A stretch of 64,000 nt of DNA from Parasphaerochaeta coccoides DSM 17374 (GTDB lineage: Bacteria; Spirochaetota; Spirochaetia; Sphaerochaetales; Sphaerochaetaceae). The stretch lies in contig NC_015436.1 of NCBI RefSeq assembly GCF_000208385.1, positions 2,046,001-2,110,000 on the forward strand, given 5' to 3'. The position numbers and the translations under genes are program-made. This document shows, in pieces, positions 60,622 through 64,000 of this stretch; positions within the stretch are counted from its first letter, which is position 1; every line of letters begins with the position of its first letter. The notes under the pieces are model-generated. The model did not search any database, was not told the DNA's origin, and saw only the letters and a program-made list of their open reading frames with translations.

Positions 60622-62709
60622 TCAGACTGAGAAAAGAAGCTCTCCATAGGTAGGGAACGGCCAGTATCCCTGTCCTACGAACCCTTCCAGCTCATCGCTC
60701 ATCGCACGGGCTTCCTGCATCCTGGCAAGGATTTCATCACGACAGAAGCGGGCAGCCTCTATGCCGGACAGTCCCTTCAACCTGATGATGGTGTCGTCCA
60801 GTTCCTCCACCTTGGCGAACAGGCTGTCCTCAAGGTCGCTGAAACGCTTGACCAGTGTCTTCTCCATGGTCACGGCAAGGCTTGGATCCAAACTGCGTTT
60901 GGTAACTGCTTCCGCCGCGTACTTGGCAGAAAAAGCGCTGGCAGCGGGGAGAACCTGCTTGCGGATTATCTCAACAAAGGTAAGTGCCTCGATATTGATG
61001 GTCTTTATGTAATTTTCGACCAAAATATCGTAACGGCTATGCAGCTCCGAAGAACTGAACACTTTATATTTCGCAAAGACTTCTTCATTCTTCGGTGCGA
61101 TGAACGCCGGTAGTGAGTCTGGAGTCGAATGAAGGTTAAGCAACCCTCGCGCCTCCGCTTCCTTCACCCATTCATCACTGTAGTTGTTGCCGTTGAACAC
61201 AATCCTCTTGTGGGCAAGGTAGGTATCGGTGACAATCTTGGCAAGGGTTTTCTTGAAATCCTTTGTCCCTTCCAGCAGGTCAGAGAACTCATCCAGCTCC
61301 TTGGCTATGATGGTGTTGAGGATGATGTTCGGACCGGAGACGGAAAAAGATGAGCCCAGCATGCGGAATTCAAACTTATTGCCGGTAAAGGCAAAGGGGC
61401 TTGTACGGTTCCGGTCCGTGCTGTCCCTGGGAATGGGAGGCAGGACATGAACACCCAGAGCCATTGCCTTGCGGCTCTTGGCACCATAGGCTGTACCGTT
61501 GGCAAGGGAATCAAGGATTTCAGTCAGCTCCTCTCCCAGATACATCGAGACAATGGCGGGAGGCGCTTCGTTCGCGCCAAGGCGATGGTCGTTGCCCGCG
61601 CTGGCGACGGATACGCGCAACAAATCCTGATATTCATCCACCGCCTTGATCACCGCCACAAGAAAGATGAGGAACTGGGCGTTGTCAATCGGGGAATCTC
61701 CCGGTTCAAGAAGATTGATGCCCGTGTCGGTCGCCATGGACCAGTTGTTATGCTTGCCCGACCCATTGACCCCGGCAAAAGGCTTTTCATGGAGAAGACA
61801 GGCAAGGCCATGCTTGTCGGCAATCTTCTTCATGATTTCCATGATGAGCTGATTATGGTCTACGGCGAGGTTGGATGTCTCGTAGACGGAAGCAAGCTCA
61901 TGCTGGCTGGGAGCTACTTCGTTATGACGTGTCTTGGCATAGACGCCTAGTTTCCATAGCTCACGATCGAGATCCTGCATATAAGCGGATACACGGGGTC
62001 GGATGGGACCGAAATAGTGATCCTCAAGCTCCTGCCCCTTGGGAGGTTTCGCTCCAACCAAGGTACGTCCGCAATGAACCAGGTCTTTGCGCTTGAGATA
62101 AAGCTCACGGTCAACCAGGAAGTATTCCTGTTCAGGCCCTGCCGTGGTGATGACTCTCTTGACATCAGTCTTTCCGAACAGACGGAGCAGGCGTACCGCG
62201 GAATCACTCAACGCTTCCATGGAACGAAGAAGCGGAGTTTTCTTGTCCAGTGCTTCACCGCTGTAGGAACAGAAAGCCGTGGGGATGCACAGCGTATTGT
62301 CCTTGATGAAGGCATAACTCGTAGGATCCCATGCCGTATAGCCGCGAGCCTCGAAGGTAGCGCGGAGACCTCCCGAAGGGAAAGAAGATGCATCAGGCTC
62401 TCCCTTAATCAGTTCCTTGCCGGAGAATACCATCAAGACCCGTCCGTCCTTGGTGGGAGAAACAAAGCTCTCATGCTTCTCAGCGGTGATACCGGTCATT
62501 GGCTGGAACCAGTGGGTATAATGAGTCGCGCCCAGTCCAATCGCCCATTCCTTCATGGCATTGGCTACGGCGTTGGCTATGGTGATGTCCAAATCTTTGC
62601 CGTCTCGAACCGTTTTCTTCAGCGCCTTGTAGATGTCCTGAGGCAATGACTCCTGCATGATCCTGTCATTGAAGACGAGTGACCCAAAATAACTGGAAAT
62701 CGTATCCAT
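60622..62709 (-). CDS. glnA: Glutamine synthetase type III
   Basis: A 695-residue type III glutamine synthetase (GlnN-like), far longer than the 450-470 residues of type I. Family landmarks are [92 protein letters not shown] and [48 protein letters not shown] seven bases before the ATG marks the start. The leader has a terminator hairpin, and an ANTAR regulator gene is divergent, suggesting control by nitrogen through antitermination. Confidence 0.96.
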
Positions 62710-62756
62710 TGATGTTCTCCCCTATAAAAACCGGCTTCGCAATACCTGCATGATAT

Positions 62757-62796
62757 GAAAAAAGACGCCGTAGACCACATGGACTACAGCGTCTTT
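62757..62796 (-). terminator. Terminator hairpin in the glnA leader
   Basis: On the minus strand AAAGACGC and GCGTCTTT close a stem that continues with GTAG/CTAC pairs and a small CATGTG-type loop, then TTTTTT. It lies 48 bases before the glnA ATG and downstream of the promoter, so it is in the 5' leader and would attenuate transcription. I did not find a certain second hairpin with the ANTAR A1/G4 hexaloop. Confidence 0.8.
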
Positions 62797-62809
62797 GCTG
62801 ATGTCGTTA

Positions 62810-62839
62810 CTTTTACAGGAGACTGCCCGTTTCTGTCAA
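62810..62839 (-). promoter_or_regulatory. glnA promoter
   Basis: On the minus strand a perfect TTGACA (62834-62839), an 18-base spacer and TAAAAG (62810-62815). Transcription would start near 62803, just before the leader hairpin. The rest of the 313-base divergent region up to the ANTAR start is AT-rich and has a CGCAAG-N5-CTTGCG repeat near 62926-62942. Confidence 0.65.
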
Positions 62840-63022
62840 CTCCCAAGGAAAGTCATTTTTCATTTTTCCTTTTCTTTTTCATTTTTGTTTTATATGGGAA
62901 ATCGGAAGCGCCATCACGCCTCCTACGCAAGCGCGTCTTGCGCCAAGCTCAACAGCATATTATCATGACGCGAAAGAACATCACGACCTGATTGTCTCCG
63001 AGCGGGAAAAAAAGGCGGAATT

Positions 63023-63592
63023 ATGAGTGGAAGTATTCTTGTCGCGTCCATCGCTCCTTCACAAAGCTGCCATATGGCAGCCATCAAAGACGCCGCGTCA
63101 TCTTCCATCCTGACCATTGTGCAGTCGGGAGCCGAGGCTCGCCGCCTCATCATGGATGAAGAATGGGATACCATCATCCTTGATCTCCCCCTGCCTGATG
63201 AGAAAGACAGCGACCTTTGCCGTATGATTGGAGAAAAAACCTTTGCATCGCTCGTGGTTATCGTGCCAGACGACCTTGTCGATACGACATCTTCTGTGGT
63301 AGAAGATTACGGGGCCGTGGTCATCGGCAGGCCATTGGATCCGGTCGCGTTTTCTTATGTGTTGAAATTCGCCCGGTCAATGAGACGCCGCATAGCCATG
63401 CTGCATCAGAAGAACTCCCGGCTTGAAAGTAAGCTGGATGAGGTCAAGCTGGTCGATCGCGCGAAAATCGCGCTCGTTCATTACCTTGACATGACTGAGG
63501 CGCAGGCTCACCGCTACATTGAGAAGCAGGCTATGGATCTGCGCATTCCGCGTATAGCGGTGGCGCGCCGTATCCTGAAGACATATGAATGA
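63023..63592 (+). CDS. ANTAR-domain response-regulator-like RNA-binding antiterminator
   Basis: A 189-residue protein with a receiver-like N-terminal domain (Asp in [13 protein letters not shown], residues 50-60) and a C-terminal ANTAR domain ([41 protein letters not shown]). ANTAR proteins bind paired RNA hairpins in leaders and prevent termination. AAGGCGG four bases before the ATG supports the start. It is divergent from the type III glutamine synthetase, whose leader has a terminator, so that leader is the prime candidate target. No dedicated sensor kinase is visible. It precedes pyrG by 34 bases. Confidence 0.92.
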
Positions 63593-63626
63593 GCATAGGG
63601 AACTATCAGGGAAACGGGAGAAGATG

Positions 63627-64000
63627 ATGACGAAATATGTCTTTGTGACTGGTGGTGTTGTTTCTGGCCTGGGAAAAGGGATAACCGCTGCGTCCCTGGG
63701 GCGTCTGCTGAAAAACCGCGGGCTTAAGATAGCGGCGCAAAAGTTGGATCCGTACATGAATGTCGATCCGGGCACGATGAGCCCGTTCCAGCATGGGGAA
63801 GTCTTTGTCACCGATGATGGCGCTGAAACCGACCTTGACCTGGGACACTATGAAAGGTTCATTGATGAGGATCTCAACAAATTCTCCAACATGACCAGCG
63901 GGAAAGTATATTGGAATGTCCTGACCAAGGAACGGAACGGGGAATATCTGGGCAGCACCGTCCAAATCATCCCCCATGTGACCAACGAAATCAAAAGTTT
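63627..64000 (+). CDS. pyrG: CTP synthase, N-terminal part (cut by window end)
   Basis: The first 124 residues of CTP synthase, which aminates UTP to CTP. The synthase domain start is clear: [28 protein letters not shown] with the ATP loop, [40 protein letters not shown], and [20 protein letters not shown] is doubled; GGGAG six bases before the second ATG (63627) makes it the likely start. It may be co-transcribed with the ANTAR gene. Confidence 0.96.

Follow-up and report, generated by a model that had tools for sequence, protein, structure and literature searches.

The window, a 64,000-nucleotide stretch of the Parasphaerochaeta coccoides genome, contains the gene glnN for a type III glutamine synthetase and, divergent from it, a gene for an ANTAR-domain regulator (Table 1). 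Assignment of the glnN product to the type III enzymes follows from its two Pfam domains, GSIII_N (269 bits) and Gln-synt_C-ter (135 bits), and a PF00120 search of the organism's own genome identified it as the sole glutamine synthetase. The divergent gene, which a first-pass annotation of the window had recognized as encoding an ANTAR protein, scores 50.1 bits with PF03861 against a cut-off of 27.3 and is the only gene of this family in the 2.23-Mb, single-contig genome. Directly 3' of it lies pyrG, which is probably part of the same operon.

Table 1. Coordinates of genes and regulatory features around the glnN leader, in positions of the window
Feature	Position	Strand	Basis
glnN, type III glutamine synthetase, 695 aa	60622..62709	-	Pfam GSIII_N and Gln-synt_C-ter
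Terminator U tract (T run)	62758..62763	-	sequence
Intrinsic terminator stem-loop	62761..62796	-	5' arm begins at first hexaloop base; excludes the hairpin
ANTAR-type hairpin CAGC[AAAGAC]GCTG, P2 equivalent	62787..62800	-	R1 match, 41.7 bits, E 2.4e-5
-10 element TAAAAG, 18-nt spacer	62810..62815	-	sequence; aligns with the -10 boxes of relatives
-35 element TTGACA	62834..62839	-	sequence; near-constant distance to the hairpin in relatives
ANTAR-domain regulator, 189 aa, divergent from glnN	63023..63592	+	PF03861
pyrG (CTP synthase), runs past the window end	63585..64000	+	NCBIfam PyrG

Upstream of the glnN start codon, an ATG at 62709, a TTGACA/TAAAAG promoter is followed by a strong terminator, as the first-pass annotation had described. 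The -35 element is perfect and the -10 element only fair to weak; a consensus promoter scanner, which demands T at the last -10 position, did not include this promoter in its output. From the position of these elements, transcription is predicted to start at about 62804. The leader folds with an energy of -29.3 kcal/mol (z = -2.7), and its terminator was likewise missing from the output of a consensus terminator scan, probably because a single internal U.U mismatch interrupts the stem.

Nine bases separate the -10 element from the hairpin CAGC[AAAGAC]GCTG, the 5' end of which is predicted to lie about 4 nt past the transcript start. The hairpin consists of a 4-bp stem with a C:G closing pair and a hexaloop in which the first base is A and the fourth is G, the A1/G4 arrangement by which Ramesh 2012 defined ANTAR targets. 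A further element of that definition, the overlap of the P2 hairpin with a mutually exclusive intrinsic terminator, is also found in the glnN leader, where the two structures exclude each other because the 5' arm of the terminator starts at position 1 of the loop. Another element, a tandem of two hairpins, each with 3 bp or more and connected via a short linker, is absent, as there is one hairpin only. Binding by the ANTAR protein and a requirement for readthrough, which also belong to the definition, are predicted for this leader. The first-pass annotation had judged the hexaloops "not obvious" and suggested on that basis that the RNA target might be unusual. One A1/G4 hexaloop is in fact present and only the second, upstream one is absent, so that the target is indeed unusual, in having one hairpin instead of two, but not for the reason that had been given.

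In the minimum-energy fold of the growing RNA, counted from the predicted start, the hairpin is present while the RNA measures 18-30 nt and has been replaced by the terminator once it reaches about 38 nt. The hairpin alone is weak (-3.7 kcal/mol) and something would therefore have to hold it. An Rfam search at gathering and relaxed thresholds returned chance matches only, with no family that fits. We also built R1, which models promoter and hairpin together. Its only strong match in the P. coccoides genome is the glnN-leader hairpin, the next best reaching only 17 bits; pyrG, in a genome with this single R1 site, has no hairpin of its own. Other exact CAGCANNGNNGCTG matches in the genome are not commoner than those of the reversed control.

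To place the hairpin in a comparative setting, glnN leaders and ANTAR neighbourhoods from Sphaerochaetaceae were scanned for hexaloop hairpins with the 3' side inside a terminator, a promoter not being required. The scan returned 78 distinct sites with A1/G4. Each of the 15 alternative base combinations at loop positions 1 and 4 gave 0-4 sites, and loops of a length other than six gave 0-9. A box that agrees with TTGACA at 5 or more of its 6 positions stands 34-46 nt upstream of the stem in 71 of the 78, where about 6% is estimated by chance, and a near-fixed distance between the -35 element and the hairpin recurs at Treponema-type and clostridial sites. When loop cores were picked by their distance from the promoter, blind to pairing, 67 of 70 were enclosed by a 4-bp stem. 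The stem covaries, with 42 double-changed cells, where shuffling gives 11.8 and slid controls give 1-4; the 38 sequences of the covariation set were chosen for pairing, and their 100% paired figure is not independent. Stem variants include CAGC/GCTG, GAAC/GTTC, GGAC/GTCC, CGAC/GTCG, AGGC/GTCT, CAAC/GTTG and CATC/GATG, among more, and the loop consensus over 125 sites is AANGR followed by a variable last base.

Upstream of these hairpins, P1-like structures occur at chance level, namely at 2 of 125 non-redundant sites compared to a shuffled mean of 2.8. The same test recovers P1 in two spirochaete loci with canonical dual-hairpin ANTAR targets, L310 (G472; at about 2750 on the minus strand) and L308 (G174; at about 6200 on the plus strand), the ANTAR proteins of which carry the EutV-like residues R142 and Y164. 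The promoter occupies the usual place of P1 in the glnN leader, and there is no room for a P1 because the hairpin starts only about 4 nt after the predicted transcript start; in eutP, the loop A's of P1 and P2 are located at +29 and +53 relative to the transcript start (A29 and A53; PMC3369931). The leader could nonetheless be a canonical two-hairpin target if transcription started further upstream and P1 either lay inside the presumed promoter or had a different shape. Such an arrangement would conform to the characterized ANTAR targets and published searches in the open-access literature, which use two hairpins (PMC3369931, PMC7496416, PMC8164766), and to the need of both hairpins for induction in the characterized EutV system (PMC3369931), and the roughly 12 times weaker binding of NasR to P2 alone (PMC7496416) counts against recognition of a single hairpin. 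Given that P1-like hairpins stay at chance in a test that finds the positive controls, and that the -35 element keeps its near-fixed distance at the Sphaerochaetaceae-type, Treponema-type and clostridial sites alike, we regard a hidden second hairpin as improbable.

The site is distributed together with the ANTAR gene. Among 139 Sphaerochaetaceae genomes, an R1 site at E<=0.1 is present in 94, an ANTAR gene in 87 and both in 86, which corresponds to 86 of 87 genomes with the gene and 8 of 52 without it; the training set of R1 consisted of loci close to ANTAR or GSIII genes, a choice that favours this family result and affects comparisons outside the family less. GSIII is encoded in 134 of the 139 genomes, and those that have no ANTAR gene nearly all keep it. 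Most of these ANTAR-less genomes are devoid of the site, among them members of genera otherwise having both the gene and the site, which argues against simple shared ancestry as the cause of the association. Among Spirochaetia outside the family, the site was found in 35 of 40 genomes with an ANTAR gene and in 1 of 40 controls without one at E<=0.1, and in 26 of 40 and 0 of 40, respectively, at E<=0.01. The eight site-bearing family genomes that have no ANTAR match are mostly incomplete assemblies; one of them, G081, is 95% complete and has two R1 matches (E 0.001), which may mean that its ANTAR gene was missed or is divergent, or else that the sites were left behind. One genome, G132, combines a weak ANTAR match with the absence of a site. 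The clostridial named loci with the closest protein relatives contain 18 one-hairpin sites, none with a P1, which precede glnN (GSIII), GSI-type glnA or amtB (in Sedimentibacter, Clostridium cuniculi and others).

This association, along with the pattern of stem changes, bears on two explanations that dispense with an ANTAR protein. The element is an imperfect palindrome adjoining a promoter and might be read by some other RNA-binding protein, act as a glutamine-sensing RNA or serve as a DNA operator at the start site. We consider this decidedly unlikely: unlike those of a DNA operator, the arms vary widely while their pairing is kept, no Rfam family matches, and the A1/G4/C:G signature, like the joint occurrence with ANTAR genes, fits an ANTAR protein specifically. 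Still less credible is an ordinary constitutive attenuator or upstream terminator, with the ANTAR gene adjoining by chance; although a strong terminator alone would lower glnN expression, the CAGC arm lies outside the terminator and yet is conserved and covarying, and the ANTAR-less relatives keep GSIII, yet the site is found in only 8 of those 52 genomes.

The regulator itself is composed of a degenerate receiver, a coiled coil and the ANTAR domain, and its structure model, a confident one (pLDDT 87.5), finds its best match among solved folds in RNA-bound EutV (6ww6). The RNA-contact positions of EutV include K149, E160 and M172 (PMC8934654), which are invariant in 62 of 62 relatives of the P. 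coccoides protein and kept in the protein itself. Three contact residues differ from EutV (R142V, Y164H and R168E), the histidine at position 164 being also that of AmiR, and the proteins associated with one-hairpin sites form a branch with I, V or L at position 142 (E in some), H164 and E168. Because the pattern used to search for the 80 named loci contained IEK[QM]AMD, it partly presupposes E168 and D173, and conservation at these positions was judged instead from a set derived from Pfam and phmmer. In phosphorylated response-regulator receivers, two acidic residues at the end of strand 1, a phospho-acceptor Asp and a conserved Lys are present. The acidic pair is replaced here by S/A/I and the Lys by Arg, and the acceptor, Asp54, is kept in P. 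coccoides and is Asn in most relatives. Because the acidic pair is gone and Asp54 is so widely replaced, phosphorylation of the receiver appears unlikely, and regulation by a partner, as for AmiR, would be the more likely mode. Genes for GSI, the ANTAR protein and GSIII are adjacent in many relatives, which makes glutamine synthetase a candidate for that partner.

Taken together, these data suggest, with a probability that we put at about 0.8, that the glnN leader is subject to ANTAR antitermination at a single, 5'-terminal hairpin. Transcription would begin a few nucleotides before CAGC[AAAGAC]GCTG, making the hairpin the first structure to emerge. Without the ANTAR protein, the terminator, which takes up the hexaloop and the hairpin's 3' strand into its 5' arm, would overtake it and transcription would stop before glnN. 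When active, presumably under nitrogen or glutamine shortage, the protein from the divergent gene would grip the hairpin via A1, G4 and the C:G closing pair, so that the polymerase reads into glnN; an upstream P1 would play no part. Least likely of all is that the protein acts in the opposite sense, or via translation as at some mycobacterial and actinobacterial targets, of which examples overlapping ribosome sites are known (PMC8164766), since the glnN hairpin, about 78 nt upstream of the ATG, shares sequence with the terminator and not with the ribosome site. With the only ANTAR gene, the only glutamine synthetase and the only strong site of the genome side by side, the compact circuit that the first-pass annotation had envisaged, a leader terminator under likely ANTAR control, is upheld.

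The glnN leader would work like the known systems yet falls outside the two-hairpin definition of their RNA target. With EutV/EutW, which control the eut genes of Enterococcus faecalis, the P. coccoides system shares an ANTAR protein, with the fold match noted above, and an A1/G4 hexaloop hairpin that extends into the 5' arm of an intrinsic terminator; the A1/G4 loop features are required in eutP (PMC3369931). It differs in that eutP has P1 and P2, both of them needed, whereas P. coccoides has one hairpin at the 5' end, and in that EutV combines a phosphorylatable receiver with R142/Y164/R168, whereas the P. coccoides protein combines a degenerate receiver with V142/H164/E168. Klebsiella NasR, acting at nasF, provides a precedent for ANTAR antitermination of nitrogen genes, which is what we predict for P. 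coccoides, and SELEX with NasR independently picked a C:G closing pair together with A1/G4 (PMC7496416), but that system has two hairpins, a NIT sensor domain and W164/R168. AmiR of Pseudomonas aeruginosa resembles the P. coccoides protein in its degenerate receiver and H164, and differs in having a reported dual-hairpin target, the amiE leader (PMC3369931), and in being controlled by the amide sensor AmiC. The nearest protein relatives outside spirochaetes are ANTAR proteins of clostridial one-hairpin loci, 54-55% identical to the G116 homologue, and the same single, promoter-abutting hairpin is present at those loci, in another phylum. We found neither spirochaetal nor single-hairpin ANTAR targets, the clostridial ones included, described in the open-access literature.

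We consider it probable that, in the ANTAR branch characterized by a degenerate receiver, H164 and E168 and found in Spirochaetia and Clostridia, one 4-bp hairpin at the 5' end is the complete target, with promoter geometry replacing the P1 recruitment hairpin, and that the two-hairpin rule is a property of the EutV/NasR branch. In the structural study of EutV with RNA, the dimer appears to hold a single hairpin, and the reason why two are needed is left open (PMC8934654). This question becomes directly testable with natural targets that have the terminator-overlapping hairpin alone, accompanied by a matching protein signature. The searches published in the open-access literature require two hairpins and would have passed over such sites.

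In the family, genes downstream of the sites are glnN, type I glnA, amtB and a glutaminase-type amidotransferase gene with weak PurF/GlmS/glutamate-synthase similarity, and Treponema-type genomes add gltB, gdhA, carA, asnB, pyrG, purA, purC and dapF. By these gene assignments, the one-hairpin sites of relatives constitute a predicted nitrogen/glutamine regulon, which fits the recognized tendency of ANTAR targets to be associated with nitrogen genes (PMC3369931), and they predict such regulons in many gut and environmental spirochaetes and in clostridia. Only the glnN site remains in P. coccoides, which represents the minimal case of one regulator, one site and one glutamine synthetase. The spirochaetal circuit proposed in the first-pass annotation is supported for P. 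coccoides but is not peculiar to it, as its relatives would run a whole regulon through one-hairpin sites.

Some of the loci in relatives have additional features. A one-hairpin site of its own precedes pyrG in the Treponema-type loci L199, L215, L219, L220, L222 and L224. In L073, L160 and L101, a hexaloop-hairpin/terminator unit is followed at 60-80 nt by another that lacks its own promoter; the gene behind such a tandem encodes GSIII in the first two loci and an ammonium transporter in the third. Many members of the family (loci L043, L050, L061, L168-L192, L318 and L319) have divergent promoters about 100 bp apart, each with its own one-hairpin site, of which one serves a type I or type III glutamine synthetase gene and its counterpart an amidotransferase gene.
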